The position numbers were made by a program, and so were the translations under genes. DNA of 64,000 bases from Terriglobus albidus. Its GTDB lineage: Bacteria; Acidobacteriota; Terriglobia; Terriglobales; Acidobacteriaceae. Numbering within the stretch: the stretch's first letter is position 1; every line of letters starts with the position of its first letter. A model generated the notes under the pieces. That model worked only from the letters and a program-made list of their open reading frames with translations, ran no database searches and had not been told where the DNA came from. Shown one piece after another: positions 20,386-40,768 of this stretch. The stretch spans positions 62,001-126,000 of the forward strand of contig NZ_JAGTAS010000056.1 in NCBI RefSeq assembly GCF_025685425.1, in the 5' to 3' direction.

Positions 20386-21618
20386 ATGAGCCAGAAAAAC
20401 AGTGTGCGTGCCGAAGACGAATTCTCGCGATACATGCGAGTGTTTCCGCAAGCCGATGGGTGGCTTGGACGTTCCGAAGAGGAACGGGACGGACTTGCCT
20501 ATCGGCACACGCTGTGTGAAATTTTGCAGCAACCGGACACATGGCTGAAGACGGCTAGCCAGGTACTGGCCTGTGCGAACAGGCTTGGAGCCCTGCTGGA
20601 TGGTTGTGAGCAGGTCGTGCTCACAGGTTCGGGAAGTTCTGAGTACGCGGGTGAGTGTGTGCGCGTTCCTTTGCAGAAGGCATTGCGGATGCCCGTACAA
20701 ACTATTGGATCCGGGGCGCTGCTGACCAATGGCACGGCCCTGCTGCCTGAAACGACCGCGTTGATGGTTTCGTTTGCGCGTTCCGGCGACAGCCCGGAGA
20801 GTGTAGCTGCCTTGCAGGTGGCGCAACGATTGAACGCGAACGTTCGACACCTAATCATCACCTGTAACAAGCAGGGCAGGCTATCTACCAGTTTCCGGAA
20901 GGGCGACGATCTGGAAGCTATCGTGCTGGATCCACGCACCAACGATCGCAGCTTGGTAATGACCAGCAGCTTCACGAACATGGCGCTTGCTGCGCTCGGC
21001 CTCTCCTACCTGAAGGCGCCACAGCAGTTCGTGCGGCACGCAGAGCAACTTAGCGAAACTGGCACAAACATTTTGCGAACTGCGTTCGAGCGTTTTCCGG
21101 AGTTTCTCCAGGAGCGATTTGAAAGGGCCTTCTATCTTGCCAGCCCGTCGTTGTTCGGTGCGGCCCGCGAATCCGCGCTGAAGATGACCGAGATGACCGC
21201 CGGCCGCGTCATTACTGTTTGCGAAACATACTTGGGGCTGCGACATGGTCCCATGAGTGCGGTGCATCCAGATTCGCTGGTAGCGTGCTTCCTCTCCGCA
21301 GATCCGCTGGTTCGAGCCTATGAACTGGATGTCGTTCGCGAGCTGAATCAGAAGCAGCTCGGCATGAAGAAGCTTTTCATTGGATCAGACATTCCAAGCG
21401 ATATTGCACGTCCGGGTGACCTCACGATTGATGTCGCGGGGTTCGACGATGATGACTTCACCTCGATTCTGTACGTTGTTGCGGGACAGGTGTTGGCGCT
21501 GCTGCGTTGCCTGCAGGAAGGTTTGCGTCCGGATGCCCCATCAAAGGATGGCGTCATCAGCCGGGTAGTGGGAGAGTTCCGCATTTACGGGATGGAAGAA
21601 ACCGCTGCGGTGTTGTGA
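20386..21618 (+). CDS. agaS: AgaS-type SIS-domain ketose/aldose isomerase-deaminase
   Basis: 410 residues from ATG 20386 with GGAGG eight bases upstream; a much longer in-frame GTG start at 20254 has no support. Two SIS domains: residues about 60-200 (VVLTGSGSSEYAGECV, LMVSFARSGDSPESVAA, HLIITCNKQG) and 235-380 (GAARESALKMTEMTAGRV, LRHGPMSAV). DPRTNDRSLVMTSSF corresponds to the xxTxDRxFAMTSSx block of E. coli AgaS, and the C-terminal PDAPSKDGVISRVV to PDTPS...NRVV. AgaS converts galactosamine-6-phosphate to tagatose-6-phosphate plus ammonia in the cytosol. Here it heads a chain with PfkB kinase, APC permease and M20 hydrolase, so a deglycase role on a phosphorylated sugar-amino acid is an alternative. 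Confidence 0.85.
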   Translation: MSQKNSVRAEDEFSRYMRVFPQADGWLGRSEEERDGLAYRHTLCEILQQPDTWLKTASQVLACANRLGALLDGCEQVVLTGSGSSEYAGECVRVPLQKALRMPVQTIGSGALLTNGTALLPETTALMVSFARSGDSPESVAALQVAQRLNANVRHLIITCNKQGRLSTSFRKGDDLEAIVLDPRTNDRSLVMTSSFTNMALAALGLSYLKAPQQFVRHAEQLSETGTNILRTAFERFPEFLQERFERAFYLASPSLFGAARESALKMTEMTAGRVITVCETYLGLRHGPMSAVHPDSLVACFLSADPLVRAYELDVVRELNQKQLGMKKLFIGSDIPSDIARPGDLTIDVAGFDDDDFTSILYVVAGQVLALLRCLQEGLRPDAPSKDGVISRVVGEFRIYGMEETAAVL

Positions 21619-21676
21619 GGCGACCGTATCGTCGTAAGTTCGTTGCAAGTGATTCATCATCGGTTTTCGGAGAGGG

Positions 21677-22663
21677 ATGCCTAGAGTGAAAGAAGCGGCG
21701 CAGCGCGCCAGACGCAGTGTTGACGTTGTGGTCGCAGGCGAGTTGAACCTCGACCTGGTGCTCTACGGCCTGCCGCCCAAGATGGAGCTGGAGCGTGAGC
21801 TGCTCGCCAGTAATTTCAGCATGACGCTGGGCAGTTCTTCCGCAATCCTTGTACACAACATGGCGAAGCTGGGTTGTTCTGCGGCGTTCCTGGGAAAAGT
21901 GGGGGACGACGCGATGGGCGAGATCACGGTGTCCCGTCTGCGTGAAGCCGGCGTGGATACCACCAGAATCAGTGTTGCCCCAGAAGGAACATCTACTGGC
22001 GTTACCGTGTTGTTGCCGCATGGGCGCGACCGTCACATCCTGACCTACATAGGGGCTATGGCGACCCTAACCGAAGCAGACGTCGACGACGCATTCCTGT
22101 TGCAGGGACGTCATCTGCACTTGTCGTCATTGTTCCTTCAGACAGGACTCAGGCCGGGAGCCGCCGCACTACTGCGCCGCGCACGTGAAGCAGGTCTCAC
22201 CACTTCTCTCGATACGAACGATGACCCCGAAGACCGCTGGGAAGGTATTGATCAACTTCTGCCGCTGGTCGATGTTCTGCTACCGAATGACGCGGAGGCA
22301 TGCCGCATGACGAGTTCGGCCGATGTGGAGCAGGCCATGGAACGCCTGGCCGCTCAGGTACCTTTGGTAGCAGTGAAATGTGGCGCAAATGGAGCGCGTT
22401 TGGCATACGGAACAGTACGAGCGCACGTTGCAGGTACGCCTGTGGTTCCGGTTGATACCATTGGCGCGGGCGATAGCTTTAACGCAGGCTTCCTGACGGC
22501 GTATCTGCGAGGACACGATCCTGAGACCTGCGCCGCCGCCGGTAACCTTACTGCCGCGCTGTCCACCTTGCGCAGTGGAGGCACGGAAGCCTTCCGTGAT
22601 GACGAACTACGCAATAGTTTCCTGCGAGAGCATGGATTTGGTTGGATGGAGCGTGCCGGGTGA
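21677..22663 (+). CDS. PfkB/ribokinase-family sugar kinase
   Basis: 328 residues from ATG 21677; a GTG at 21686 has a better-spaced GGAGAGG and is equally possible. PfkB signatures are present: the N-terminal GELNLDLVLYGLP strand, GSSSAILVHNMAKLGCSAAFLGKVGDDAMG, and the catalytic C-terminal VDTIGAGDSFNAGFLTAYL with the conserved Asp base in GAGD. Cytosolic; phosphorylates a sugar, amino-sugar or fructosamine. It lies 58 bases after the AgaS-like gene and overlaps the permease by four bases. In frl and fra systems the PfkB enzyme makes the 6-phosphate used by the SIS deglycase. In an amino-sugar route it would act before AgaS. Confidence 0.88.
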   Translation: MPRVKEAAQRARRSVDVVVAGELNLDLVLYGLPPKMELERELLASNFSMTLGSSSAILVHNMAKLGCSAAFLGKVGDDAMGEITVSRLREAGVDTTRISVAPEGTSTGVTVLLPHGRDRHILTYIGAMATLTEADVDDAFLLQGRHLHLSSLFLQTGLRPGAAALLRRAREAGLTTSLDTNDDPEDRWEGIDQLLPLVDVLLPNDAEACRMTSSADVEQAMERLAAQVPLVAVKCGANGARLAYGTVRAHVAGTPVVPVDTIGAGDSFNAGFLTAYLRGHDPETCAAAGNLTAALSTLRSGGTEAFRDDELRNSFLREHGFGWMERAG

Positions 22664-24018
22664 GTGAGCATTTGCCGCAGCCAAGTACACTTCGCCGCGT
22701 GCTCTCGCGTCGCGATCTGATCCTGTATGGCCTGGTGATCCTCACGCCCACTGCGCCATACCCTGTTTTTGGTATCGTGCAGCAGACATCACATGGGCAC
22801 AGCGTGTTGAGCTACCTGGTCGCCATGGTCGCCATGCTGTTCACTGCAATGAGCTACGGCCGTATGTCAGGCGCGTTCCCGTCCGCAGGCTCTACCTATA
22901 CCTATGTGTCAGAGGGGCTGCATCCGATTGTCGGCTTTCTTGCAGGTTGGGGCATGATCCTGGATTACTTGCTGATCCCGCTGCTGAGCGTCGTTTACGC
23001 TGCGCTGACTGCAAGCCGTATGGTTCCGTCCGTGCCATATTCTGCGTGGGCCGTGATGTTCACGGTGGCGATTACGCTGATTAATCTTCGCGGCCTGCGC
23101 ATGACCAAGTGGGTGGGGAATGTGATGATGGGGTTGATGTGTATCTGCGCGGTGCTGTTCGTGGCGCTCGCGTTGCGCTATCTGGCAGCTCATGGCATCT
23201 CTCTGGTTACGCCGCGTGCGATCTACAATCCGGCCACATTCAGCCTGCGACCGCTCATGCTGGGCGCTGCCATCGCAAGCCTTTCGTTTATCGGCTTCGA
23301 CGCGATCTCTACATTAGCGGAGGACACGATCGATCCGGAGCGCGACATCTCTTTCGCAACCGTCGCGGTGTGTCTTATTGAGGCGGTCTTTTGCGTTGTG
23401 GCTGTATATGTCGCATCTCTGGTGGCACCGGATTTCGCGAACTACACGGAATCAGAGACGGAGATCCTCGACATCGGACGCGCCATCGGCGGCACAGCCA
23501 TGCTGCAGTTCATGAGTGTCATCCTGCTGGTGGCGGGCCTGGCTAGCGCATTGACTGGTCAGGCGGGCGCTTCGCGACTGTTGCTGGGCATGGGACGTGA
23601 CGGCGTGGTGTCGCGCCGCTTTTTCGCGCACATTAATCCAAGACATGCCACACCCACGCGAAGCATTTACCTGATGGGTGCGATTTCGTTAGCCGGATCG
23701 TTGTTGTTACGCTTCCAGCTTGTCGTGGAGTTGTTGAATTTCGGCGCTTTCTTTGGGTTCATCCTGGTGAACCTGAGTGTCATCCGGCACTTCTTCGGGC
23801 GCAAGGAGCAGCGGAGCGGCCTGGCGATCCTCACGTCACTTGTCTTTCCCGCACTCGGTGCTATCGTGTCCGCCTATGTGTGGCTCAGCCTCACTGCGAA
23901 AGCGCAGATCGCAGGTTTCGCCTGGCTCTGCACTGGCGCAGTTTATCTGGCTGTTTTGACGAAAGGCTTTCGCCGCAACGCGGGACGACTCACCAGCCTG
24001 GAGGGAACAGCCGTATGA
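22660..24018 (+). CDS. APC-superfamily amino-acid/amine permease
   Basis: 452 residues from GTG 22660, four-base overlap (GTGA) with the kinase stop; the longer TTG frame at 22642 lies inside the kinase. About 12 membrane segments. Typical APC features are LILYGLVILTPTAPYPVFGIV (helix 1), the FPSAGSTYTYVSEGL block, ASLSFIGFDAISTLAEDT (helix 6 core) and AGLASALTGQAGASRLLLGMGRDGVV. Proton-coupled importer in the inner membrane. An amino-acid-type carrier between sugar genes is the key hint that the substrate carries an amino-acid or amine part, as for FrlA in fructoselysine uptake. Confidence 0.88.
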   Translation: MSEHLPQPSTLRRVLSRRDLILYGLVILTPTAPYPVFGIVQQTSHGHSVLSYLVAMVAMLFTAMSYGRMSGAFPSAGSTYTYVSEGLHPIVGFLAGWGMILDYLLIPLLSVVYAALTASRMVPSVPYSAWAVMFTVAITLINLRGLRMTKWVGNVMMGLMCICAVLFVALALRYLAAHGISLVTPRAIYNPATFSLRPLMLGAAIASLSFIGFDAISTLAEDTIDPERDISFATVAVCLIEAVFCVVAVYVASLVAPDFANYTESETEILDIGRAIGGTAMLQFMSVILLVAGLASALTGQAGASRLLLGMGRDGVVSRRFFAHINPRHATPTRSIYLMGAISLAGSLLLRFQLVVELLNFGAFFGFILVNLSVIRHFFGRKEQRSGLAILTSLVFPALGAIVSAYVWLSLTAKAQIAGFAWLCTGAVYLAVLTKGFRRNAGRLTSLEGTAV

Positions 24019-25310
24019 CCCCTGATGCGCAGAAGATCCGCACCCTTGTTGAAAACAATCGTGAACTCCTGCTGAAGACTTTGGAAGACCTGATCCGCAT
24101 TCCATCAGAGAACCGCTCTCCTGCAGGGGATGAAGCTGCATGTCAGCAGTACCTGGCGGAGCGTCTGAAGGCGACGGGATATGAATATGATCTGTACCCG
24201 CTGAACGATGTAAGGGAATTGCGCGGCCACCCGCTGAGCACACCGGATCGAGACTACCCCGACCGGCCCAACCTCAGTACTGTACGCCGCGGATCGGGTG
24301 GTGGCCGCTCACTTATCCTCTCCGGGCACATCGACACGGTGCCGCGCGGCACCCTGCCGTGGACGCGGGACGCATTTGAAGCGGTGCGCGAGGGCGACCG
24401 CATCTATGGCCGCGGGGCGAACGATATGAAGGCGGGTGTCGCGATCAACTTATTCGTGTTGCAGATGCTGGATGCGATGAGATTGCGGTTGCGCGGGGAC
24501 GTGATCTTCGAAAGCGTTGTGGATGAGGAATTCGGCGGTGTGAATGGGACGCTTGCGGCGCGGCTACGGGGCTCTATGGCGGATGCGGCCATTGTGACGG
24601 AGCCTTCCTCTTTACGCATCTGTGCGGCGCAGCGTGGCGGGCGCACCGTGCACCTGCTGTTTACCGCATCTGGCGGCGTCTTGGATGGCGGCCCTGGCGC
24701 GGGTGTCATCACGCAGTTGAAACGCTTCATGGATGAGCTGCCGAATTTCGCCAACCAGCGGAAGAGGGAGTGCAAGGGACACGCGCTTTATCAGAGCGAT
24801 GATCCCGTGCCGGTCACCATCACCAAGATCACGACTGGCCCTTGGGGGACGAGTGAGCCGATCACCGTGCCGGAAGAGTGCAGGGTAGAGCTGTACTGGC
24901 AGCTGATGCCGGGCGAAGAACAAGCCGATGTCGACACCGAGTTTCAGGCGTGGCTGGATGGCCTGATCAATGCAGCGCCAGATATCTTTGCATCCGCACC
25001 GACGTTGACGAAGGCAGTGCGCTGGCTACCGGGATCAGCCATTGAAGCAGATGAGCCGCTTTGCGTGGAGCTGGCGGATGCAGCGCAAGAAGCGAACGGA
25101 ACGCGTCCGTCCGTTGTGGGCATGGAAGCCCCATGCGACATGTTCATCTTCCATCGCTTTGGCATACCTGCGGTGCTTTGGGGGCCCAGCGGTGCCGGGG
25201 CACATGGTTCGGACGAGTACGTCACCATCTCCAGCATGCTGGACGCCGCCGCCGCCCTGCTGTTGTTCACATGCCGGTGGTGCGGCGTCGCCGGGGGGCC
25301 GCAGGAATGA
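24015..25310 (+). CDS. M20-family zinc amidohydrolase/peptidase (ArgE/DapE/ACY1 type)
   Basis: 431 residues; ATG 24015 overlaps the permease stop (ATGA). Di-zinc motifs are intact: LILSGHIDTVPRG (first His and Asp), YGRGANDMKAGVA (bridging Asp), VVDEEFGGVNG (catalytic Glu-Glu), a later EAPCDMFIF region and the C-terminal GAHGSDEYV with the last His. There is no signal peptide, so it acts in the cytosol after import. Family reactions: removal of an acyl group from, or cleavage of, an amino-acid amide. In this operon it may free the sugar or amino acid from a conjugate. Its partner genes parallel the fra set, which also carries an amidohydrolase (asparaginase). Confidence 0.88.
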   Translation: MTPDAQKIRTLVENNRELLLKTLEDLIRIPSENRSPAGDEAACQQYLAERLKATGYEYDLYPLNDVRELRGHPLSTPDRDYPDRPNLSTVRRGSGGGRSLILSGHIDTVPRGTLPWTRDAFEAVREGDRIYGRGANDMKAGVAINLFVLQMLDAMRLRLRGDVIFESVVDEEFGGVNGTLAARLRGSMADAAIVTEPSSLRICAAQRGGRTVHLLFTASGGVLDGGPGAGVITQLKRFMDELPNFANQRKRECKGHALYQSDDPVPVTITKITTGPWGTSEPITVPEECRVELYWQLMPGEEQADVDTEFQAWLDGLINAAPDIFASAPTLTKAVRWLPGSAIEADEPLCVELADAAQEANGTRPSVVGMEAPCDMFIFHRFGIPAVLWGPSGAGAHGSDEYVTISSMLDAAAALLLFTCRWCGVAGGPQE

Positions 25311-26785
25311 GAGTGCTACAGAGCGTGGCGATTGGCATTGGATGCATTCTTTCGACGGCCGGCGCTGCCGCACAGACAATCGTCATCAAGCCAGTGGAAT
25401 CTGACCGTGTGCTGACTAATCCTGGCATCGGCTTCACCACATTCCAGCGCTTCAATGGAGACAAGCTGAACAGCGGTACGGGGTGGACCGAAGGCTCGCC
25501 GATCGAGTCCCAGCCATTGCCCGGAGCGACGGTTGCGCCCGGATACCCGAAGTCCACCGTTGCATATCTGCGGCTGTATTGGAAGTTCCTCGAACCAGAA
25601 AAAGGTCGCTTCGATTGGAGCCTGCTGGACCGAGCTTTGGAGACTGCTCAGCAGCGCAGACAGACGCTGATGTTGCGAATTGCGCCCCATGGTTCGCAAG
25701 CTACCGAGGATGTTCCGGGCTGGTATCGCAAGGAGACAGGAGAACACATCGACGCGGGCCACAGGCAAACCGACTGGCAATCCAAGAAGGCCAAGTGGCT
25801 CATCGATCCCGAGCAGCCAGCGTACGCGCGAGAATACGGAGCTATGATCCGTGCCCTCGGGAAACGATATGATGGCGATCCAAGGCTGGAGTCGGTCGAC
25901 ATTTCACTGCTCGCAGCATGGGGCGAGGGAGCAGGGAGCGATTTGCTGAGCGGCGCCACACGCACGGCGTTGATCAGGAGCTACACCGAGAGCTTTCACC
26001 GCACACCGCTCCTCACACAGCTCGCCGATGCAGGTACCGTAGCGGAGACCCTTGCCGCAGCGCATAACGGAGGCGCTGCAGGCAGTCCAGATGCTCCGGT
26101 CGTAGGTTGGCGCGCAGATTGTCTCGGCGACATGGGCGGATTCGATCCAAAACGAAACCTGATGACGGATAGCTACCCGGAGGCCATTGTCGGACTGCAT
26201 CTGGATCAGCTATGGAAAACCGCACCGGTGGCGATGGAGTCCTGCTGGGTTATGCAGCATTGGAAGGACCAGGGCTGGGACCTGAAGTACATTGCGGCTC
26301 AAGCGGAGAAATGGCACGTATCCACGTTCAACAACAAGTCGTCCGCCGTGCCGGAAGAGTGGTGGCCTCAGGTGAATGAGTGGCTGCGCCACATGGGATA
26401 TCGGTTCGCGCTGCGACGGTTTGCCTATCCGTCGCGCATAGGCTCCGACCGCACGCTGAAGTACGAATCATGGTGGGAGAACAAAGGGAACGCCCCTGTG
26501 TACCGGCCGTACCGTGCTGCGCTGCAGCTCACCGACGGCCGGGGCACGTGGGTTATTCCACTTCCGGCAGATGTACGCAGTTGGTTACCGGGAGATATCG
26601 TGCAGAATGGCACCGTGACGCTGCCGCAGGGCATACCCTCGGGTGAGTATCGCCTCGCCATCGCGCTGATAGATCCCATCGAGCCGCAGCCCCGCATCCA
26701 CCTCGCCGTGGAAGGCGAGAACAGCAATGGATGGTTTCCACTGGGAAGCCTTTTCCTTGAAGGCACGCCGTCCACCAACCGTTAG
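25307..26785 (+). CDS. Secreted DUF4832 protein (putative glycoside hydrolase-like)
   Basis: 492 residues; ATG 25307 overlaps the M20 stop (ATGA) and starts a signal peptide (VLQSVAIGIGCILSTAGAAAQ). The long upstream frame is discarded. The first 330 residues resemble a TIM barrel with GH42/GH5-like spacing (NPGIGFTTFQRF, AYLRLYWKFLEPEKGRFDW, LLDRALETAQQRRQTLMLRI, VDISLLAAWGEGAG). The C-terminal 150 residues are the DUF4832 beta domain (SDRTLKYESWWENKGNAPVY). Family members are untested putative glycosidases or carbohydrate binders. Tight coupling to a cytosolic catabolic operon suggests that it acts on the polymer or glycoside feeding the pathway. Confidence 0.8.
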   Translation: MRVLQSVAIGIGCILSTAGAAAQTIVIKPVESDRVLTNPGIGFTTFQRFNGDKLNSGTGWTEGSPIESQPLPGATVAPGYPKSTVAYLRLYWKFLEPEKGRFDWSLLDRALETAQQRRQTLMLRIAPHGSQATEDVPGWYRKETGEHIDAGHRQTDWQSKKAKWLIDPEQPAYAREYGAMIRALGKRYDGDPRLESVDISLLAAWGEGAGSDLLSGATRTALIRSYTESFHRTPLLTQLADAGTVAETLAAAHNGGAAGSPDAPVVGWRADCLGDMGGFDPKRNLMTDSYPEAIVGLHLDQLWKTAPVAMESCWVMQHWKDQGWDLKYIAAQAEKWHVSTFNNKSSAVPEEWWPQVNEWLRHMGYRFALRRFAYPSRIGSDRTLKYESWWENKGNAPVYRPYRAALQLTDGRGTWVIPLPADVRSWLPGDIVQNGTVTLPQGIPSGEYRLAIALIDPIEPQPRIHLAVEGENSNGWFPLGSLFLEGTPSTNR

Positions 26786-26842
26786 CAACGACCCTCCGCT
26801 CAACGAAAAAAAACGGCATATATTACGTATTGTTATCTTTTG

Positions 26843-26871
26843 TTGACTTTGTGTTTCCTTTCCTGTACTAA
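26843..26871 (+). promoter_or_regulatory. Sigma-70-type promoter of the second TonB receptor
   Basis: TTGACT at 26843-26848, a 17-base spacer, then TACTAA at 26866-26871. This is the best housekeeping-type promoter seen in the window and points at the receptor start 80 bases on. An AT-rich stretch (TATTACGTATTGTTAT) sits directly upstream and might hold an operator. Confidence 0.65.
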
Positions 26872-26951
26872 GTACGCACTGCCTTTTCTCTAGATCCGGC
26901 CGGTCTGCGGGCCGGGCATAGTGCTGGTGCTTGTTTCTCCAAGGAGCTTGT

Positions 26952-30574: not shown

Positions 30575-31457
30575 AATCGCGAAGAAGGTGCAGGTAGCCG
30601 AACCGCGACGGCACATGGAAGCTGACATCATGTGTGGGTTGCCACGCAAGTTCTACGGGAGCGGGTCCTTGGCTACGGAAGAGATTCAAGCGCAGATCGC
30701 GGGTCCCGCGTTCGGCGAGTAGCGGGACCGGAACGCGCAGGAAGGCCAGCCAGCGACTCTGGCTTTCACGCAGCTCAGCGGCCGCAAGAAATCCGGAATT
30801 GAGTGCGACAGAGCTATGGATGGCGCCATCGTCCGCCGTGATGTCCAGATCGAGCCATTCACCACGCGGTGATACTTCATACTCGCCATAGCCTTGCGAC
30901 GCTTTCGGGTCGCGTCCAAGGAAGAGTTCGGCAACGTCGTGTTCCCAAAGGTTGGGGGTCGGTTGTGTAAGCACCGCATCGTCTGTGCGTAGGTTTAGGT
31001 GCTCGTAGCCAGAATTGAAGAGCAAGTAAAGATTATTGTCTGTCCAGCGCATGCGAACTTCCGTATCGTGCCCTTCCACGCGCAGACCTGAATTGTCTGT
31101 CAGAAGGAGGGCAGACGGAGCAGACTGCCACCATCCAGAACATGGATCAAGATCAACGTCTATCTCCTCCCCCGACCACGCAGCCAACGCCGTGCGGTGC
31201 CAGAGACGGCGCTCGTGTTCCGCATCGCTGATTGCCATCCAATGGACAGCCTCAACGGCGTGCGTGCGCCGTACTAACCAGCCGATACGGCCAGCCTGCT
31301 TCTCATCCGCTTCTACCGTGAATTGGATGTGCATGGCGCTGTGGCATTGGCGGGCCTGCAAATGTTGGGGAGGGATTCGCTGGGTCTCAAGCACCTGAAG
31401 GATGCGCGACACAGATCGCTCCACGGCAGAAACACGTACCTGGAAGTACCAATGCAA
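30573..31457 (-). CDS. Cytosolic-looking protein with ACT-like N-terminus and CBM9-like C-terminus
   Basis: 294 residues from TTG 31457, chosen because AAGGAG sits five bases upstream; a TTG at 31496 would only extend it without a ribosome site. Residues 1-75 (HWYFQVRVSAVERSVSRILQ ... MHIQFTVEADEKQAGRI) have the beta-alpha-beta pattern of ACT domains such as acetolactate-synthase small subunits. Residues about 90-290 resemble CBM9-like beta sandwiches (VRMRWTDNNLYLLFNSGYE, DVAELFLGRDP, YGEYEVSPRGEWLDL, WLAFLRVPVPLL). There is no signal peptide, unusual for a CBM9-like protein. Divergent from the DUF5107 gene. Function unknown; the fold calls are from pattern only. Confidence 0.6.
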   Translation of the reverse strand: MHWYFQVRVSAVERSVSRILQVLETQRIPPQHLQARQCHSAMHIQFTVEADEKQAGRIGWLVRRTHAVEAVHWMAISDAEHERRLWHRTALAAWSGEEIDVDLDPCSGWWQSAPSALLLTDNSGLRVEGHDTEVRMRWTDNNLYLLFNSGYEHLNLRTDDAVLTQPTPNLWEHDVAELFLGRDPKASQGYGEYEVSPRGEWLDLDITADDGAIHSSVALNSGFLAAAELRESQSRWLAFLRVPVPLLAERGTRDLRLNLFRSQGPAPVELAWQPTHDVSFHVPSRFGYLHLLRD

Positions 31458-31604
31458 TGCGGCTCCTTGGGTGGCTGGTGGGAAGATCCTTAGCAACTCG
31501 TATAGAAAATGCTAACAAAACGAAACTAAACGATAGTAAAGAGTCGCGCAATCAGGTACAGTAGCTCCATCGCTCGATCGCGGTTTTCTTGGAGTACTTC
31601 ACGA

Positions 31605-34600
31605 ATGAAGAAGCACGGCATCTTTGTCCTTGCGTTGTCCGCTACTCTTTTGCATGCGCAGGGGCCGTCCGCGGTGACGGTTCGCGAGGGCGAGATTTCG
31701 GTGCCCACGTACGAGAATCCTGGACGGGAGCTTCAGCCACCGCTCTTTGCAGGCTCAGCAGCAGGTGGCGTCTATCCGTTTCCCACGTACAAGACACCGC
31801 TGCCTGCAACTCCGACACCAAAGACCTACAAAGCCGTCTTCCTCGAAAGTGACACGCTTCGTCTGACCTATGTGCCGGAGTTCGGCGGCCGCTTCATGGA
31901 ACTGTACGACAAGCTAAACAAGCGTGAGGTCTTCTACAAGAACGACGTCATCAAACCGACCGGCTTCAATCCTCGCATGAACTGGCCGCAGGAGGGTATC
32001 GAGCTCACGGGACCGTTTGACATTCATTCGCTGACGCTGAAGTCAGACCCGTTCTGGTCGAACACCGTGGTGAAGCATGACGATGGCAGCGTCAGCATTA
32101 TGCTGGGCGAGATCGATCCGTTTTACGGTATGGACGTGACTCTTACCGCCACGCTGCATCCTGGTGTACATGGCCTGCAGATCAGCGTGTTTTGCTTCAA
32201 CCCGAACACCAGCCGTATGCCACAGATGTTCTGGACCAATGCTGCGTTCCCATTAACGAAGGAAACGCAGTTTCTCTATCCCATGTCGCGCACTGTAGGT
32301 CACAACACCGGTGAGGTCACAGACTGGCCCTGGTATCACGGGGTGGACTATAGCTGGGACCGTAACAACCTGAATATGCTGGGCGTGTTCGGTATCGACG
32401 CGTATGACAACTACGGGGGCGCCTACATGTATGACCAGGATTACGGCGTCTTTCGCTATGCCGACCGTCGTGTGGTGCAGGGCATGAAGATGTGGACCTG
32501 GGGACACGGCCGCGACTCTGCCGCTACGGAACGCAGCTACACGGACAAGGCCGGCCCGTACTACGAGGCGCAGAGCGGTCGGCATGTCTGGGATGGACAC
32601 TACGAGTGGGTGGGGCCGCACGCCGTCGAACGCTGGAGCGAGTGGTGGATTCCCGTTGCGGGCACTAAAGGGCTTAGCACGCTGAGCGATGCTGCCGCGC
32701 TGAACGTCCGGGAGGAGAAGCAGGGCAGCAAGCCGTCGCTACAGGTTGACCTTTCGCCAGTGCGTGCAGTGCAAGGCGCACATCTGATCGTGACATCCGG
32801 CGCCGGTATGCTGACGGACACCACGCTCGATCTCGTTCCGGGAACGCCCGTTCATAAGACGGTTGTCGCAAAGAGTGGCATCCTGCGAGATGTACAGGTT
32901 GTTCTCAAGGACGCAAGCGGTGCAGAGCTGCTTCGTTATCAGCGGCCCAATCCTGAAACGAAGCCGTCCGATTACACCGCCTTCACGCGCGAATTGGAAA
33001 AGCCGACCAAGCTTCCGGAGCAGATGGACCCGGAGGAGCTAGTGCTTGCCGCCGAGTCAAAGCTGAAGGACCTGGATGACGCAGGCTCACTCGATCTTCT
33101 GGCGCTCTCTCTGAAAAAGTTGCCGGGCTACAGCGTGGCCAACACGTTGAAAGGAATCCTGCTGTACAAGCAAGGCAAACTGCCAGAGGCGGAGGCCGCC
33201 TTGCAGGCGGCAGTGGATCGCAATCCATACGAAGACCGCGGCTGGTACTACCTTGCGGTTACTCAGCTAGACCGGGGCAACCGCACTGCCGCGGAGCGTA
33301 ACCTCTATTACGTGTGGCCGGAGAGCGCCTACTTCGGTAATCGCGAGTATCAGTTAGGACGTTTGAACCTGATGCGCGGAGACTTTCATGCTGCCATCGA
33401 GCATCTTCGCGGCGCTGTGAACCACAACGCGGAAGATCTCAGCGCGCACCAGATGTTGGCAATGGCCTATCGCGCCACGAAGCAGGATGCGCTGGCCGAA
33501 GAAGAATGCGCGACCTTGTTAGGCATCGACCCGACCAATCGCGCAGCATTCGCGGAACGTTTTCTGCGGACCGGAGACGCTGATGTGAAGGCTGAACTCA
33601 AGCGCCGCATCGGTGACCAGACACAGGAGGCGCTCCACCTTGCGGAGTTTTACAGCAACGCGGAACGGTGGAAGGATGCCGCAGCGTTGTTGGAACTAGA
33701 GATACCGCCGAATGCTGATCCGTTCGGGACTTCTTCCGTTTTCTATTACACGCTTGCGGATGCCCAGGACCATGCGGGTGATCACAGCGCGGCGAAGGCC
33801 TCGCGTGCGGCGGCAAAGCGCACTGAGCCTGTTATCGATCGCTTCCCGTATCTCCGATCCAGCGAAGCGCCGCTGCGTGCCGCTATTGCGGTAGACCCGG
33901 CGGATGTACTTGCGCACTACGACCTGGGCTGTCTGCTTTACTCGCTTGACCGCAAGGATGAAGCCGTAGCGGAGTGGCTGGCTGCGGAACATCTACGCGG
34001 TAGCGACTTCAAGATTGAGCGTGTGTTGGGTCTTGCCGCTGCTGAGGCAGGCCAGACGAACATGGCCATCAATCATCTCCAGAAGGGCGTGGAGCTCGAT
34101 CCAAGTCACCTTGCAACGGTGAATGATCTTGTTTCGCAATATGCGAAGGCCGGCCGCTTTGACGAAGAGTTGAAACTTCTGCAGGCCAGCGTTGACCGCG
34201 CGGCAGACAAGGATGACCTGATGATGCGCCTGCTGCAGGTGAACTTAGTGCAGGGCCGGTACGATGATGCGGAGAAGGTGATCGGCACCCACACTTTTGC
34301 GCCGCGCCACCGCGACACACAGCTTCGCGACAACTATCGCGCTTTGAAGTATGCCGAAGCAGGAAAGGCGTTCCGCGCAGGCAAGTATGCGGAGTCATAT
34401 ACCGCATTGCAGGCAATCGCAACACCGCCGGCAACGCTCGGCGTGGACGACTTCCACTTTGAAGCCACACCCCGGCTGAACTACGATCAGGGACTCGTCC
34501 TGGAAGCACTCGGCAAGTATGCTGAAGCGCAGGCGGAGTTCAACGATGCAGTGAAGCATGCCGACCTGACCTCAGGCGACAGGACCAGCTACAACAGCGA

Positions 34601-34883
34601 CAGTATCTTTGTGCTGTTTGCCCTGGATCGCCTGAACCGGAAGCAGGAATCGGATGGACTTGCGAAGAAGTTCGGCGAGTTCGCGCAGACACAGTTGCCG
34701 CTGAAGCGCGCGCATCGTCGGGCTGAAGGTCATTACCTGTTGGCACTGCTCGCGTTACGCGCCGGCGATCGCACTGCAGCAAATCAGCATATTCAAGAGG
34801 CTTTGCGCATCGAGCCGGACTTCCTGGCGCCTCGCTTTGATTTGCGTGGTGATTCGGTGGATGTGGTGTTAACGGTTCGGTAG
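31605..34883 (+). CDS. Secreted DUF5107 protein with C-terminal TPR array
   Basis: 1092 residues, signal peptide MKKHGIFVLALSATLLHAQG, GGAG upstream of ATG 31605. Residues about 60-370 are DUF5107, a galactose-mutarotase-like beta sandwich (LRLTYVPEFGGRFMELYDKLNKREVFY; MFWTNAAFPL; WGHGRDSAATERSYTDKAGPYYE). From about 480 to the end, repeated helical pairs such as GILLYKQGKLPEAEAALQAA and AHYDLGCLLYSLDRKDEAVAEWL form at least eight TPR units. Family knowledge: DUF5107-TPR proteins occur in polysaccharide loci of Bacteroidota and Acidobacteriota, with untested roles in handling glycan or recruiting enzymes. First gene of a four-gene chain with 20-, 12- and 6-base gaps. Confidence 0.85.
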   Translation: MKKHGIFVLALSATLLHAQGPSAVTVREGEISVPTYENPGRELQPPLFAGSAAGGVYPFPTYKTPLPATPTPKTYKAVFLESDTLRLTYVPEFGGRFMELYDKLNKREVFYKNDVIKPTGFNPRMNWPQEGIELTGPFDIHSLTLKSDPFWSNTVVKHDDGSVSIMLGEIDPFYGMDVTLTATLHPGVHGLQISVFCFNPNTSRMPQMFWTNAAFPLTKETQFLYPMSRTVGHNTGEVTDWPWYHGVDYSWDRNNLNMLGVFGIDAYDNYGGAYMYDQDYGVFRYADRRVVQGMKMWTWGHGRDSAATERSYTDKAGPYYEAQSGRHVWDGHYEWVGPHAVERWSEWWIPVAGTKGLSTLSDAAALNVREEKQGSKPSLQVDLSPVRAVQGAHLIVTSGAGMLTDTTLDLVPGTPVHKTVVAKSGILRDVQVVLKDASGAELLRYQRPNPETKPSDYTAFTRELEKPTKLPEQMDPEELVLAAESKLKDLDDAGSLDLLALSLKKLPGYSVANTLKGILLYKQGKLPEAEAALQAAVDRNPYEDRGWYYLAVTQLDRGNRTAAERNLYYVWPESAYFGNREYQLGRLNLMRGDFHAAIEHLRGAVNHNAEDLSAHQMLAMAYRATKQDALAEEECATLLGIDPTNRAAFAERFLRTGDADVKAELKRRIGDQTQEALHLAEFYSNAERWKDAAALLELEIPPNADPFGTSSVFYYTLADAQDHAGDHSAAKASRAAAKRTEPVIDRFPYLRSSEAPLRAAIAVDPADVLAHYDLGCLLYSLDRKDEAVAEWLAAEHLRGSDFKIERVLGLAAAEAGQTNMAINHLQKGVELDPSHLATVNDLVSQYAKAGRFDEELKLLQASVDRAADKDDLMMRLLQVNLVQGRYDDAEKVIGTHTFAPRHRDTQLRDNYRALKYAEAGKAFRAGKYAESYTALQAIATPPATLGVDDFHFEATPRLNYDQGLVLEALGKYAEAQAEFNDAVKHADLTSGDRTSYNSDSIFVLFALDRLNRKQESDGLAKKFGEFAQTQLPLKRAHRRAEGHYLLALLALRAGDRTAANQHIQEALRIEPDFLAPRFDLRGDSVDVVLTVR

Positions 34884-34903: not shown

Positions 34904-37510
34904 ATGGTACGACGTACATTCGGCTGGGCCTTTGCGACCTGTCTCTTGCTGCCGCTTGCAAGTGTTGCGGCAACGCGCGGCGTTGTGGGGCTGTCGTTGC
35001 CGTCAAAGGTTCTGGAACGTAAAGGGACGGTCGTGGCCACCATGCGCTTTCAGCATGCACATACGGGCAAGGGAAGTGTACATGTGCGCTGGACGGATTC
35101 GCTCAATCGAGTTGTGCAGGAGTACGACTCTCCCATCGAGCTTACGGACGAGGAAGAGTTCACCTTTCCGGTGGACATGACACGCGCGGTCGCCATGGAG
35201 AACACGCTGGAAGCGCATTTCACCATGGATGAGAAGACTGCCAAGGGTACGGAACGTCTGGATGAGACGGGTCGCGTGGACTTTACTGCAAAACCCCTGT
35301 TTCAAGGCTGGCGCGACTACGTCATCATCATGTATCAGTCCTATCCTGCGCCCATTCACGAGAAGCTGGAGCGGCTGGGCATTAACGGCGGACAATGGGT
35401 GGGACGCAACCAGACGACGATCCCTCAAAACCTGCTGAAGAACAACATCCGTTGGTACTCTGAGCAAATTGCAACCGATTTTTACGCGGAGTACCATCGT
35501 TTCCGAACGGATCGGAGCGTGGACTGGTCGTTTCAGCAAGCCAAGGACCTGTACTTTGCTGACCCCACGTCGAAGGAGGCCTTGAAGCGCCATCCCAGCC
35601 TCTCTGACCCGGTTTGGCTTGCGAAGATCACAGATCGCCTGCGCGCGACGGTCAAGCTGAACCAGCCTTATCGGCCGTTCTTCTACAGCCTGGCAGATGA
35701 GACCGGGATTGCTGAGCTCGGAGCCCAGTGGGACTTTGACTTCTCCGACCAGTCCCTTGAAGCCATGCGCATCTGGCTGCATGAACGGTACGGCACGCTG
35801 GCCGCACTGAACGCGGCTTGGGGGTCGAGCTTCAAGGATTGGAATCTGGTCACGCCGCAAACCACCAATGAAGCGATGAAGCGCACGGACGAGAACTGGA
35901 CGTCCTGGGCTGACTTCAAAGAGTGGATGGATATCGCATACGCCAACGCCATCAAAGCTGGTGTGGACGCCGTGCATGAGGTAGATCCCGAAGCCTACGC
36001 CGGCGTGGTGGGTGCGCAGAAGCCCGGGTGGGGCGGCTACGACTATTCGCGGCTGACGCAGGTTGCTACGGTCATGGAGCCGTATGACATTGGCGGTAGC
36101 GTCAAGCTGGCGCATTCCCTGAATCCATCTATACCCTTGCTGTCCACAACCTTTGCGAGCGATGACGCGGAGCGCCAACGCATCTGGCATGAATTGTTTC
36201 AGGGCAATCGCGGTCTCATCTTGTGGGATGAGGATCAACGCTACATCCGTCCTGATGGTTCTAAGGGAGAAGGTGGCGCAAGGGCGGAGGGTTACTACAA
36301 TGAACTCCGCGACGGTCTTGCTGCCCTCATCATTGCCAGCAAGGGCGATGATGATGGCATTGCAGTCCACTTCTCGCAGCCAAGCCTGCGCACGCAATGG
36401 ATGCTCGAGCGGCGCCCTGATGGCGATGCATGGATGAAGCGCGACGCTTCTTATGAGCGCAGCCACAACGACTTTCTCCGCCTTCGTGAATCATGGGGAC
36501 ACGCCATCGAAGATCAGGGCCTGCAGTATCGCTTCATTTCGTACGCCCAGGTGGAGAAGGGTGGCCTTCTGCATGGCGGCATCAAGGCATTGATCCTCCC
36601 TAACTCCAGTTCGCTCTCGGCTGCAGAGGTAAGCGAGATTCGGAACTTCATCTGGCGCGGCGGAACGGTGATTGCAGATGGTCTTCCCGGCACATACGAC
36701 GAGCACAGCCGACGCCTTGCGGCATCACCGCTTGCAGATCTGTTTGTGGCGGGCAACAGGGAAATCACGCACACGTTGAAGTATGGCGCTGGTCAGGCCA
36801 TCACTGTCGGCTTCAGTGTGACGCCGTATCTGCAAAACCGTCTTAGGAGTAACGAGCAGCCAACAGCGAGGCGCATCGCAGAGATTCTACACAAGGCGGG
36901 CGTTACGCCCACCATCGCCGTGACCGATGCCAATCGGCAGCCCGCAGTGGGCGTGAACGTTCGCACCTTTGAAAATGGAGGCGTAACGCTGCTCACGCTG
37001 TTGTCTAACCCGCAGCTCTCCGTCGACGAACTCGGCGCGGTCAACTCCCGCTCGAACGAACGCTTCAGCAAGCCGCAGCAACTGGTGGTGCATCTGCCTT
37101 CTCCCATGTATGTGTGGGATGTTCGCGCGAAGAAGGACCTGGGCCGAGTGACAAGCCTCCCCGTCACAATGGCTGCGTATGATCCTACCGTGCTTGCCAT
37201 CAGTAATACTCCACAGCCGGAGATGAAGAGCGTGATGCCGGACCATGTAAAGGCTGGCGATCGGCTCACCCTCTCCATCACGTCCTTGAATACACCTTCA
37301 GCGAAACAGATCTATCACGTCGATGTCATCGATCCTTCCGGGCAACGCAATGTCCAGTACTCCACCAACGTCTTTGGTGAACATGGAGCAGCGGCGTACA
37401 CATGGCCGTTGGCGAAGAACGATGCAGCCGGTGCCTGGACCTTCCGCGTGCAGGAAATGTTGACCGGCGTGGTGCAGACGCATACTGTGCAATTGCAATC
37501 CGGCGAATAA
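34904..37510 (+). CDS. Secreted GH42-like (beta-galactosidase-type) glycoside hydrolase
   Basis: 868 residues; AAGGAG before ATG 34904; signal peptide (FATCLLLPLASVAA). A short N-terminal beta domain precedes a TIM barrel (VIIMYQSYPAPIHEKLERLG ... FFYSLADETGIAEL with E266 where a GH42-type acid/base is expected; LNAAWGSSFKDWNLV; FKEWMDIAYANAI). A Rossmann-like trimerisation domain follows (KALILPNSSSLSAAEVSEIRNFIWRGG) and a C-terminal beta domain. Layout is that of GH42-type enzymes but the sequence is divergent, so hydrolysis of beta-galactosides or arabinosides is inferred, not shown. Lies between DUF5107-TPR and the transglutaminase-fold gene in one probable operon. Confidence 0.75.
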   Translation: MVRRTFGWAFATCLLLPLASVAATRGVVGLSLPSKVLERKGTVVATMRFQHAHTGKGSVHVRWTDSLNRVVQEYDSPIELTDEEEFTFPVDMTRAVAMENTLEAHFTMDEKTAKGTERLDETGRVDFTAKPLFQGWRDYVIIMYQSYPAPIHEKLERLGINGGQWVGRNQTTIPQNLLKNNIRWYSEQIATDFYAEYHRFRTDRSVDWSFQQAKDLYFADPTSKEALKRHPSLSDPVWLAKITDRLRATVKLNQPYRPFFYSLADETGIAELGAQWDFDFSDQSLEAMRIWLHERYGTLAALNAAWGSSFKDWNLVTPQTTNEAMKRTDENWTSWADFKEWMDIAYANAIKAGVDAVHEVDPEAYAGVVGAQKPGWGGYDYSRLTQVATVMEPYDIGGSVKLAHSLNPSIPLLSTTFASDDAERQRIWHELFQGNRGLILWDEDQRYIRPDGSKGEGGARAEGYYNELRDGLAALIIASKGDDDGIAVHFSQPSLRTQWMLERRPDGDAWMKRDASYERSHNDFLRLRESWGHAIEDQGLQYRFISYAQVEKGGLLHGGIKALILPNSSSLSAAEVSEIRNFIWRGGTVIADGLPGTYDEHSRRLAASPLADLFVAGNREITHTLKYGAGQAITVGFSVTPYLQNRLRSNEQPTARRIAEILHKAGVTPTIAVTDANRQPAVGVNVRTFENGGVTLLTLLSNPQLSVDELGAVNSRSNERFSKPQQLVVHLPSPMYVWDVRAKKDLGRVTSLPVTMAAYDPTVLAISNTPQPEMKSVMPDHVKAGDRLTLSITSLNTPSAKQIYHVDVIDPSGQRNVQYSTNVFGEHGAAAYTWPLAKNDAAGAWTFRVQEMLTGVVQTHTVQLQSGE

Positions 37511-37522
37511 GGAGATGGGGAT

Positions 37523-39595
37523 ATGAAGCGGTCAAAGCTATCTTGCCAGTGCATTCTGCTTTTATCCATGCTGACGCCGACGCTGTTTTCAGCGGGCGCG
37601 CAGGTGTACTCTCCCACGATCGTTCGCGAAGGCGCAGTCGACACAACGGATCTGCACCGCATGGCTGAAGGCATTGTGCAGAACGCACATGCGGAAACGC
37701 CCAGGCAGAAGGCCGAAGCTATTTGGCGATACTTCCTGACCGACGGCCGCTTCGTTCGCCCTGGCATCTTCTATCACATCCCCGGATGGGCCTACGAGGA
37801 GCCGTTGGGCGAGGTGCTGGATCCAGTAAAACTGGTAAACAGTTACGGCTTCGGTCTTTGCTACCAGGACGCCCCTCTGCTTGCTGCCACATGGGAGGCA
37901 GCGGGGCTGCCCGCGCGCGTGTGGTTTCTCACCGGGCATACCGTTGCTGAAGTCTATTACGACGGCGCATACCACTACTACGACTCAGACATGATGGGTT
38001 ACACCACTGTGGGCAACGGTCCGGTGTGGAGCAGCCCTGTTGCCTCGGTGCAGCAGCTGGCAGACGATCCAAAGCTGATTCTGGACAAGCTGATCTCTGA
38101 AAAGATGACGCGAGCCGGCAGCGTGGATGCACCATGGTATCCGGCAGACCTGCGTGCGGGAGCCATCCCGGGCCTCGCTGAGTTGTTCTCCACGAGGGAT
38201 GACAACTATCTCTACGCTGGTTCGCGCTACCCCCATGGGCACACCATGGACTTCACGCTGCGCCCGGGTGAGCGCATGATCCGATACTACGAACCCGGTG
38301 AGTATGCATCGCGCTATATGCCGTACCATCGTGACGGCAGCACCTGGCAGGAGTTTCCAAAGGACATCGGCGAAATCCTGCTGGTGAAGAACGGCCCTCG
38401 GAGCGAGAAGGATGAGCGGCGCTGGTCTGTGGGTGTTCTGGAGTATCGGCCGGACGCAGCGGCGCAACGTGCCGGCAACGGAAAGGCCGGTGAGTGGACG
38501 TATCGCATCGCATCGCCGTATGTTCTGATAGACGCGCAGTTCATTGCGGACGCCGGATCAATTGGCCTGCAAGCGGAAACGTCTGCAGACGACGGCCACA
38601 GCTGGACGCCAGTCGTCGTGAACACATTTGCTGGAGGGCAATGGTCTGCAGCGCCTGGACGACTCGCCACCACAACGCATGGACAACTGAATGCGGTTGC
38701 GGGAACGTACGGTTACCTGCTGCGTCTGCGCAGCTCGAAGCCCATGCAAACTGTACCCGGCCTGCTCATCCGTTCCACGTTTGAGGTGAATCCGCGGACA
38801 CTGCCGGGACTGCTGCCCGGAACGAACCGGTTCACCGTAACTAAGTCGCAACAGGAGAGACATGAGCTCCCTGTACACGCAGAGACAGCAGTATCATTCG
38901 CTAAATTTGCAAAGCATGTGACCTTCGAAAGCGATCATGGTCAGGGCTATCTTCGCAATGAAGACGGCCACGACGGTGAACTCATCTTCGCGTTTGATCG
39001 TGACCGTGATGGACATTTGAAGGCGATCGATGCCGGTGGGCGCTTCCTGGACCTTCACAGTGGTTTGGCGCCGGACAAGCTCACGGCGGAGACGCGCAAG
39101 GTAACTCCGTGGCCGGCGCAGGCTGATGCACCGCAGTCCGCCAGCATTGCCTGGTCGACCAGCGAAGCAGGCCCATGGATTACAGTATGGAGCTTCGCCG
39201 GTCAGAAGCCGCCGTCAGGTGATGGTTCACAGAAGCTGCAGACTCTGCAGTGGCCTGAGGTGGACCGTACCATCAGTGGCTTCCCGAATGGCGCCGGCAA
39301 CGTGTACGTTCGCTATCAGTTCCGGAATCTCGCAGTAGACGATGTGCGCCTGGCAACGATGCGTGCACCCGAGGGGAAGCCCACGGCGTTGACCGTGACG
39401 CACTGCTGGACCGCCGATGGCAGGGCAGGATCATTCAGTCGTACGCTTGCGGCAGATGACTTCAGCTACGAGATCAAGGTCCCGGAAAGCAGCGCGGTAA
39501 CTCCAACAGCCTTGATACTGTTTGCGGGCAATGCTTCGGATGCATCATCTGTCTGCACGGAACAGGCGCCTTTGCAGTTCGCAGGGAGCCGCTAG
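37523..39595 (+). CDS. Secreted transglutaminase-fold protein
   Basis: 690 residues, AAGGAG before ATG 37523, signal peptide (ILLLSMLTPTLFSAGAQ). A papain-like transglutaminase-core domain at residues about 40-165 shows the complete triad: C113 (GFGLCYQDAPLLAATWEAAG), H139 (TGHTVAEVYYDG) and D154 (YHYYDSDMMG). Several beta domains follow (residues about 300-690). The superfamily includes proteases, cross-linkers and peptide:N-glycanases, which act on glycosylated peptides. In a locus combining sugar and amino-acid genes, cleavage of a peptide or glycopeptide bond is attractive but unproven. Six bases before the PFK gene. Confidence 0.8.
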   Translation: MKRSKLSCQCILLLSMLTPTLFSAGAQVYSPTIVREGAVDTTDLHRMAEGIVQNAHAETPRQKAEAIWRYFLTDGRFVRPGIFYHIPGWAYEEPLGEVLDPVKLVNSYGFGLCYQDAPLLAATWEAAGLPARVWFLTGHTVAEVYYDGAYHYYDSDMMGYTTVGNGPVWSSPVASVQQLADDPKLILDKLISEKMTRAGSVDAPWYPADLRAGAIPGLAELFSTRDDNYLYAGSRYPHGHTMDFTLRPGERMIRYYEPGEYASRYMPYHRDGSTWQEFPKDIGEILLVKNGPRSEKDERRWSVGVLEYRPDAAAQRAGNGKAGEWTYRIASPYVLIDAQFIADAGSIGLQAETSADDGHSWTPVVVNTFAGGQWSAAPGRLATTTHGQLNAVAGTYGYLLRLRSSKPMQTVPGLLIRSTFEVNPRTLPGLLPGTNRFTVTKSQQERHELPVHAETAVSFAKFAKHVTFESDHGQGYLRNEDGHDGELIFAFDRDRDGHLKAIDAGGRFLDLHSGLAPDKLTAETRKVTPWPAQADAPQSASIAWSTSEAGPWITVWSFAGQKPPSGDGSQKLQTLQWPEVDRTISGFPNGAGNVYVRYQFRNLAVDDVRLATMRAPEGKPTALTVTHCWTADGRAGSFSRTLAADDFSYEIKVPESSAVTPTALILFAGNASDASSVCTEQAPLQFAGSR

Positions 39596-39601
39596 ACTCG
39601 T

Positions 39602-40768
39602 ATGCCAGGCAACATGCTCATAGTGCAGGGCGGCGGCCCCACGGCGGTCTTCAATGCGAGTCTCGCCAGTGCCATCCGCGAACGGGCAAAGCAAGCGCCC
39701 GGTGGTCGCATCTACGGTGCACGATTCGGCATGCAGGGCTTGTCTCGTGCCGACTTGATCGACCTGAGCAGCCTGTCCAGCGATGCGCTATTACAGGTGC
39801 GAAATAGTCCGGGCGCTGCGCTTGGCTCATCGCGCTTCGCGCCTTCGGAAGCAGATCTGGATGCATCGCTGCGGCATCTGAGTAGTCGCGGCGTTGACCA
39901 GATTGTGTTCCTTGGCGGCAACGGCACCATGAGCGGAGCTAAGAAGTTCGCAGAGTTTTGCGAGAGCCGTAGTTTCTCCGTGCAGGTCATGGGATCTCCG
40001 AAGACGATCGACAACGATATTGCCGCCACCGATCGCTGCCCTGGTTTCGGCAGTGCAGCGCGCTTCATCGCACAAAGCACGTTGGATCTGGCTGCTGATC
40101 TTCGCTCGCTCCACCAGCCTGTCTCTATCTTCGAGACGCTCGGGCGCGATGTAGGTTGGCTCTCCGCAGCAGCAGCGCTTGCGAAAGAGAATGAGGATGA
40201 TCCGCCACACGTGGTCTGCGTGCCGGAGGTGCCGTTTGAACTCGACCGGTTTCTCGATGCCATTTCCAACACCGTCGCAAAGATCGGGTGGGCACTCGCC
40301 GTGGTATCGGAAGGAATCTCGTATGCGAACGGCAAACCTGTCTTTCAGCAGGTATTGCCGTCAGGCGGGAAAACGGCCATGAGGCCATTGATAGGTGGAG
40401 TTGCACAGCACCTGTCGGGACTTGTGGCGGAGCACCTCGGGCTGCGTTGCCGCAGCGAAAAGCCTGGCCTGATCGGACGTTCAGCCGCTGCTTACGTGTC
40501 ATCACAGGACCTCGCAGATGCAGAACTCACTGCGCAGGAGTGCGTGCGTGCGCTTGCCCGCGGAGAAACCGGCAAGATGGCGTCCTTGCTTCCCCTTGGG
40601 ACTGGAGCATCGCCTTCATGCGAATTGATCCCGTTGGCAGCTGCTGCAGGCCCCCGGAGAGCGTTACCGCAGGAGTGGCTCGGCACGGGTGCGATCGCAT
40701 CGAATGAAAAGTTTCGGGGGTATGCCGCGCCATTGGTGGGCCAACTCAGGCGACCGAGATATCTCTAA
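39602..40768 (+). CDS. PfkA-family 6-phosphofructokinase with atypical active site
   Basis: 388 residues. Substrate and phosphoryl-donor motifs: GGGPTAVFNAS near the N-terminus, GGNGTM with N107-G108, and PKTIDND with K134, D137 and D139. ATP enzymes normally have GGDG and PGTIDND; pyrophosphate enzymes have GGDD and PKTIDND. This protein has the pyrophosphate-type Lys, the ATP-type Gly and an unusual Asn for the Mg-binding Asp. Cytosolic; makes a sugar 1,6-bisphosphate. With the AgaS-like enzyme it could phosphorylate tagatose-6-phosphate. It ends the operon starting at 31605; no aldolase follows. Confidence 0.85.
   Translation: MPGNMLIVQGGGPTAVFNASLASAIRERAKQAPGGRIYGARFGMQGLSRADLIDLSSLSSDALLQVRNSPGAALGSSRFAPSEADLDASLRHLSSRGVDQIVFLGGNGTMSGAKKFAEFCESRSFSVQVMGSPKTIDNDIAATDRCPGFGSAARFIAQSTLDLAADLRSLHQPVSIFETLGRDVGWLSAAAALAKENEDDPPHVVCVPEVPFELDRFLDAISNTVAKIGWALAVVSEGISYANGKPVFQQVLPSGGKTAMRPLIGGVAQHLSGLVAEHLGLRCRSEKPGLIGRSAAAYVSSQDLADAELTAQECVRALARGETGKMASLLPLGTGASPSCELIPLAAAAGPRRALPQEWLGTGAIASNEKFRGYAAPLVGQLRRPRYL

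Follow-up and report, generated by a model that had tools for sequence, protein, structure and literature searches.

We here describe a putative amino-sugar catabolic locus of Terriglobus albidus (Acidobacteriota), which lies in a stretch of 64,000 nucleotides of a 6.1 Mb assembly (contig NZ_JAGTAS010000056.1; G000:C50:62001-126000 by our handles), called the window throughout. The locus begins with an operon of five plus-strand genes in the order SIS, PfkB, APC, M20 and DUF4832. Family scans assign these to a predicted AgaS-family SIS sugar-phosphate deaminase/isomerase of 410 aa (20386..21618; PF01380 and NCBIfam agaS_fam), a PfkB/ribokinase-family sugar kinase of 328 aa, probably an amino-sugar 6-kinase (21677..22663; PF00294, 173 bits), an APC-family permease of 452 aa whose GTG start overlaps the PfkB stop (22660..24018; AA_permease, 106 bits), an ArgE/DapE-type M20 amidohydrolase of 431 aa in which no signal peptide was seen (24015..25310; Peptidase_M20, 89 bits) and a DUF4832 protein of 492 aa with a signal-like start and a GH42-like N-terminal part (25307..26785; DUF4832, 71 bits, and Glyco_hydro_42, 35 bits). 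Four-base stop/start overlaps join PfkB to APC (GTGA), APC to M20 (ATGA) and M20 to DUF4832 (ATGA), which bears out the translationally coupled chain of an earlier note on this DNA for these junctions but not for SIS and PfkB, which are separated by 58 bases. Further 3' follow a TonB-dependent receptor with a carboxypeptidase-regulatory-like N-terminus (26952..30431, plus strand; OMP_b-brl_4, 605 bits), a CBM9-like protein (30573..31496, minus strand; CBM9_1, 26 bits), a DUF5107-TPR protein (31605..34883, plus strand; DUF5107, 146 bits, with TPRs), a GH42-like protein (34904..37510, plus strand; Glyco_hydro_42, 30 bits), a protein with a weak match to the transglutaminase core (37523..39595, plus strand) and a PF00365 phosphofructokinase (PFK), a candidate tagatose-6-phosphate kinase (39602..40768, plus strand; 158 bits, and 338 bits against a cut-off of 273 for the NCBIfam PRK14072 subfamily). 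All genes that the earlier note had named are thus found where it had placed them, although the CBM9 gene does not follow on in the same direction but diverges from the DUF5107 gene, and the transglutaminase-fold call is a weak one, with PF01841 at 18.1 bits under a cut-off of 23 and no match among solved-structure sequences.

Judged from its sequence, the SIS protein is a member of the AgaS family. The best of the four NCBIfam models that it matched, none of them a deglycase model, is agaS_fam (TIGR02815, 263 bits), with the GlmD model at 58 bits, and among proteins of solved structure it comes closest to three putative tagatose-6-phosphate ketose/aldose isomerases (E 2e-56 to 1e-47). BLAST comparison with E. 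coli K-12 gave 33% identity to AgaS (174 bits, E 1e-51) and no match to FrlB at E <= 10. The alignment with E. coli AgaS preserves the segments LKMTE and RHGP, which we take to carry the catalytic Glu and His of the SIS fold family; as the predicted deaminase/isomerase of an aga pathway, the protein can be placed at family level only. The likeness to the frl fructoselysine operon, from which the earlier note had set out, lies in the combination of an APC permease, an SIS enzyme and a PfkB kinase. Beyond this outline the similarity is distant, with PfkB at 27% identity to E. coli FrlD (BLAST, 54 bits; 78 bits against the FrlD model NF007321, cut-off 247) and APC at 26% identity to FrlA (BLAST, 59 bits), while FrlC and FrlR were unmatched by SIS, PfkB, APC, M20 and PFK in the E. 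coli K-12 comparison. With an SIS enzyme that is not FrlB-like, and with relatives that carry AgaR and KbaZ, which mark the use of galactosamine, the frl framing does not hold; the best fit is an aga-type pathway for amino sugars that employs an APC permease and a PfkB kinase. The fra fructose-asparagine operon combines an SIS deglycase (FraB), a kinase, a transporter and an amide hydrolase; its outline is the same as here, with the difference that the amide hydrolase is an asparaginase (FraE) there and an M20 protein in the present locus.

AgaS is described as a galactosamine-6-phosphate deaminase/isomerase, and Shewanella as using a permease-kinase variant of the pathway, in the excerpted text of PMC12118421 and PMC2996990. 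We propose that the locus probably, though with considerable reservation, serves aga-type catabolism of galactosamine or an N-acyl-galactosamine, with a permease and a kinase taking the place of the phosphotransferase system (PTS), for the genes of which no search was made. From the gene families we infer the sugar, every catalytic step and the parts played by M20 and PFK as follows. Exported glycoside hydrolase (GH)-like proteins together with the TonB receptor would release the sugar and take it up, the APC permease would carry it into the cytosol, M20 would strip the N-acyl (or amino-acyl) group and PfkB would phosphorylate galactosamine at C6. The AgaS-like SIS enzyme would then deaminate and isomerise galactosamine-6-phosphate to tagatose-6-phosphate, PFK, encoded last in the locus, would add the second phosphate, and the bisphosphate would be cleaved by an aldolase encoded elsewhere in the genome, KbaZ being the only aldolase searched for.

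The core of the locus is conserved across the order. In a survey of 298 of its genomes (E <= 1e-40 for AgaS, 1e-60 for the kinase, 1e-60 for APC, 1e-30 for M20 and 1e-3 for KbaZ), an AgaS-like gene occurs at 131 places in 121 genomes, the kinase subfamily in 160 genomes, APC in 162, KbaZ in 88 and M20 in 19. A further 14 AgaS copies, in 12 other genomes, belong to the close clade at 47-58% identity, the remainder lying at or below 43%. Co-location was counted within 10 kb and with the present genome included; since 150 places each were considered for the kinase and APC, the AgaS-PfkB and AgaS-APC counts are lower bounds, and eight short KbaZ fragments, the sole KbaZ matches of G108 and G127, were left out of the count. 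AgaS is accompanied by PfkB at 67 or more of its 131 places, by KbaZ at 39 and by APC at 14 or more. With roughly one kinase in a genome of 5 Mb, well under 1% would be expected by chance, and the clustering of the core exceeds it. M20 lies near both AgaS and PfkB at six of its 19 places, which belong to six different genera (G000, G107, G207, G084, G175 and G197), and near APC at five or more (G000, G163, G207, G084 and G137). One locus, L097 (JAJZCA010000125.1), combines AgaS, PfkB, an Amidohydrolase_2 gene, M20 (52%) and APC (57%). From the co-location counts and this gene set it follows that SIS, PfkB, APC and M20 belong together in places, the pairing of SIS with M20 being uncommon. In the genome-neighbourhood comparison, a check that the earlier note had suggested, the permease and M20 join the core in several genera.

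These neighbourhoods also bear on a reading as glycosyl-amino-acid or glycopeptide catabolism, in which APC would import a glycosylated amino acid or small glycopeptide, M20 would cut its amide bond, PfkB would act as a kinase on the sugar moiety and the AgaS-like protein as a deglycase or deaminase. For amino-acid conjugates, APC and M20 are the kind of families that one would expect, and their genes overlap by ATGA both here and in L097 and are adjacent in G163 (L151). However, the SIS protein resembles AgaS and not FrlB, and kinase loci without M20 or APC matches, such as L074 and L087, keep an SIS gene, an AgaR-like regulator, KbaZ and a sugar-porter MFS transporter, so that the core can do without an amino-acid conjugate; we therefore hold this reading to be distinctly unlikely. 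M20 itself is closest among solved-structure sequences to putative acetylornithine and succinyl-diaminopimelate deacylases, which does not set its substrate. The step order of the earlier note, with amide hydrolysis, a kinase, AgaS-like removal of nitrogen and a second phosphorylation, is sensible, and an N-acyl amino sugar was among the substrates it offered. Ordinary galactosamine-6-phosphate/tagatose-6-phosphate chemistry, which it had named as the case that would speak against it, is now the leading reading, yet the permease and M20, which that case would have left to unrelated substrates, do co-occur with the core.

The neighbours of the kinase were counted, again within 10 kb, at the best 80 of at least 528 confirmed candidate loci, many of which end at contig ends; those of these relatives that are named belong to the Acidobacteriota, except for one metagenome-assembled genome labelled Alphaproteobacteria (L138). 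The most frequent companions are an AgaR-like regulator (54 of 80), Amidohydrolase_2 (38), a TonB-receptor-like protein (34), AgaS (27), a second, GlmD-like SIS type (25) and KbaZ (20), followed by a GH36-like protein (12), sugar-porter MFS (11), a melibiase-like protein (9), APC (7), DUF4832 (4), a NagB-like protein (4) and M20 (2). None of the 52 loci that have AgaS or the second SIS has both, as expected if the two do the same step. At kinase identities of 54% or more, 23 of 25 loci have one of the two SIS types, compared with 29 of the 55 loci at 46-53%. One AgaR and one KbaZ were scanned against curated cut-offs and both pass, the AgaR of the present genome (C39) with 275.6 against 260 and the KbaZ of L053 with 601.7 against 568.8. 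The GH36-like candidate, which is not present in the window, has no sequence match among solved structures; its structure model (mean predicted local distance difference test score, pLDDT, 87) returned GH36 alpha-galactosidases on top in Foldseek (best E 1e-24, template modelling score, TM, 0.64), a Flavonifractor plautii alpha-galactosamine galactosaminidase at ranks 5-7 (TM 0.42-0.45) and also GH97 enzymes. As far as the model goes, this glycosidase likeness is a hint that would suit a galacto-configured sugar in the regulon and fixes no specificity. A mutual exclusion of M20 and Amidohydrolase_2 was considered and dropped, L097 having both among the two M20 loci of the 80. Five loci with kinase relatives of 50-53% identity (L101, L102, L106, L117 and L128) lie beside radical-SAM/SPASM-like peptide genes, as read from sequence; four of them have an AgaR-like regulator, none matches AgaS or the second SIS, and they probably represent a different system.

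The AgaR that passes the curated cut-off is encoded on another contig of the same genome, C39, within a second set of related genes (L058; G000:C39:581500-601400, 6878-12779) that comprises a GlmD-like SIS, a 54% kinase paralog, AgaR and, as read from sequence, two genes that resemble Amidohydrolase_2 and a sugar-porter MFS; the sequence at 10986-10999 of this locus matches the AgaR consensus exactly. For the search of operator-like sites, 244 upstream regions from the 80 kinase loci served to train a matrix seeded with what we take to be the E. coli AgaR consensus. Among the 25 intergenic regions of the window, the divergent CBM9/DUF5107 promoter region (31497..31604) ranks first, with overlapping AgaR-like sites and the top score of the window (31519, minus strand, 19.3 bits). 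The region 5' of the TonB receptor (26786..26951) ranks second, with six matrix positions of at least 8 bits and a best score of 14.2, and the region 5' of the SIS operon (20315..20385) fourth, with weak sites at three such positions and a best score of 10.2. These three regions, 345 of 8404 intergenic bases, hold 12 of the 18 intergenic positions of at least 8 bits, overlapping ones not being independent; none of 1000 column-permuted matrices reaches 12, and the best site, at 18.5, lies above the best of 20 Markov-shuffled windows, at 17.7. Outside the training set, 22 loci were given and 21 scored (L050 has no intergenic stretch, and L039 is probably the same contig as training locus L086); 15 of the 21 have a best site of at least 12 bits, compared with 5.3 loci on average for permuted matrices, and none of 200 permutations reaches the mean.

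The shared AgaR-like sites suggest that the outer-membrane front end, which the earlier note had attached to the core, probably does belong with it. DUF5107 was matched, in one to three pieces, in 12 of 13 chosen genomes with close-clade AgaS (none in G175) and lies near AgaS in seven of the 13, namely 1.4-7.7 kb from one AgaS-like gene in G252, G294, G117, G255, G164 and G066 and 10.1 kb away in G000. It is not near AgaS in G032, G037, G045, G046 and G165, and the second AgaS-like gene of G252 and that of G255 have no DUF5107 nearby. The DUF4832 protein matches only beta-galactosidases among solved-structure sequences, and weakly (best E 1e-4), and its structure model, built on an alignment of four sequences, has a mean pLDDT of 48. 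DUF4832 is described in Pel polysaccharide clusters in the excerpted text of PMC7112168, which we take as a lead only. In four other close-clade AgaS loci without PfkB (L044, L046, L047 and L048), we observed BNR/sortilin-like (Pfam for L044 only), Amidohydrolase_2-like and DUF5107-TPR genes, together with a TonB receptor in L044, L047 and L048 and NagB-like and MFS-like genes in L046 and L047.

A number of observations weigh against the aga-type assignment. The agaS_fam score of 263 bits stays under the curated cut-off of 529, and the top models of the permease are amino-acid transporters. In the excerpted text of PMC5583593, agaS is a signature of N-acetylgalactosamine or galactosamine use and agaA marks use of N-acetylgalactosamine rather than galactosamine; no full-length deacetylase of the AgaA/NagA type was found in the locus, two occurring elsewhere in the genome, with NagA over its cut-off only at C20 and C22. 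Near the kinase, DUF5107 appears in 2 of 80 loci, which tells against a firm link of the front end to the core, CBM9 in one, and the PFK, GH42-like and transglutaminase-like genes in none. As to the operators, 88 of 1000 permuted matrices also place the best site of the window in these promoters, two coding sites (47529 and 36526) score 16-17 bits, and the plain consensus is not enriched window-wide (6 sites where 3.9 are expected, and 17 of 100 shuffles yield 6 or more). No operator site was found in the same-genus SIS-PfkB-PFK loci L040, L041 and L043 or in L049, and those in L156 and L159 are weak. Finally, KbaZ (PF08013) is absent from this genome, and G032, G037 and G046 have no PF00365 protein besides the linked PFK, which may consequently be the glycolytic enzyme there.

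The last two points concern the second phosphorylation. PFK lies one gene from SIS in L040, L041 and L043. Its sequence has GGNGT, where we presume GGDGT to be usual, together with PKTIDND. An action on tagatose-6-phosphate appears plausible. The present genome has two PF00365 proteins; a single one was found in each of G032, G037, G045 and G046, where it scores 173-181 bits like the window PFK, while the other type scores 340-353 bits and is the sole one in G039. The four genomes with a linked PFK (G000, G032, G037 and G046) have no KbaZ; G045, which has its PFK on another contig, does have KbaZ. However, KbaZ is also missing from seven further genomes of the genus, six of them outside the PFK search, so that a substitution of PFK for KbaZ stays weak.

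These distributions could also be read as catabolism of glucosamine or another hexosamine to fructose-6-phosphate, with PFK as the ordinary glycolytic kinase. This would accommodate the missing KbaZ, the second SIS type that is nearest to GlmD, a glucosamine-6-phosphate deaminase, and the single PF00365 protein, resembling the window PFK, of four out of five relatives searched within the genus. It is, however, very unlikely in view of AgaR in the same genome, of the AgaR-like sites at the locus and of the KbaZ genes that accompany either SIS type in relatives. Alternatively, PfkB could be the tagatose-6-phosphate kinase, in the role of LacC, with the first phosphorylation left to an unlinked kinase. 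We take LacC to be a PfkB-family protein that belongs to the 1-phosphofructokinase/hexose-kinase model, for which the present PfkB scores 48 bits compared with 122-124 bits for the IolC and ribose-1-phosphate kinase models. LacC is named as tagatose-6-phosphate kinase in the excerpted text of PMC12118421, and in many relatives no kinase gene other than that of PfkB is seen near SIS. As a first kinase would be needed without a PTS, and with PFK already in the window, we consider the LacC role unlikely and retain PfkB as the probable amino-sugar 6-kinase.

Most likely, the locus is an undescribed form of the aga pathway with a permease and a PfkB kinase. It shares with the aga/gam systems of E. 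coli and Shewanella (AgaS, AgaR and KbaZ; AgaOMP-AgaP-AgaK) the AgaS-family deaminase and the AgaR-type operator-like sites, and with Shewanella in particular an outer-membrane receptor, a permease and a kinase instead of a PTS (excerpts of PMC12118421 and PMC2996990). It differs in its APC-family permease, PfkB-family kinase and M20, in PFK within the locus and in the DUF4832 and DUF5107 proteins, as well as in lacking a full-length AgaA/NagA in the locus and KbaZ in the genome. The literature matches listed include no account of a comparable locus from Acidobacteriota; Edaphobacter paludis grows on N-acetylgalactosamine according to the excerpted text of PMC11354219. More tentatively, we can imagine a galactosamine-first pathway of the Acidobacteriota, in which APC would import the free amine or N-(amino)acyl-galactosamine, M20 would serve as deacylase for AgaA, PfkB as galactosamine 6-kinase and PFK in place of KbaZ, behind a polymer-facing DUF4832/DUF5107 front end that possibly addresses galactosamine polymers of fungal or bacterial matrices. 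If the aga-type assignment is right, it would provide a concrete gene set for galactosamine catabolism in a widespread soil phylum, for a pathway otherwise known mainly from gut bacteria, add one kinase family and one transporter family to that pathway and suggest a role for the imprecisely named PfkB, M20, DUF4832 and DUF5107 genes of these genomes.

Two further features were observed 3' of PFK. An Amidohydro_3-type metallohydrolase with a signal-like start is encoded at 41299-42840 and contains a NagA-like N-terminal match of 201 bases (28.7 bits, C50:103500). The third-ranked intergenic AgaR-like score (10.6 bits) falls into 46345-46524, 5' of a GH97 gene with which a GH97/SASA/arabinofuranosidase/GH95 cluster at 46525-58961 begins.

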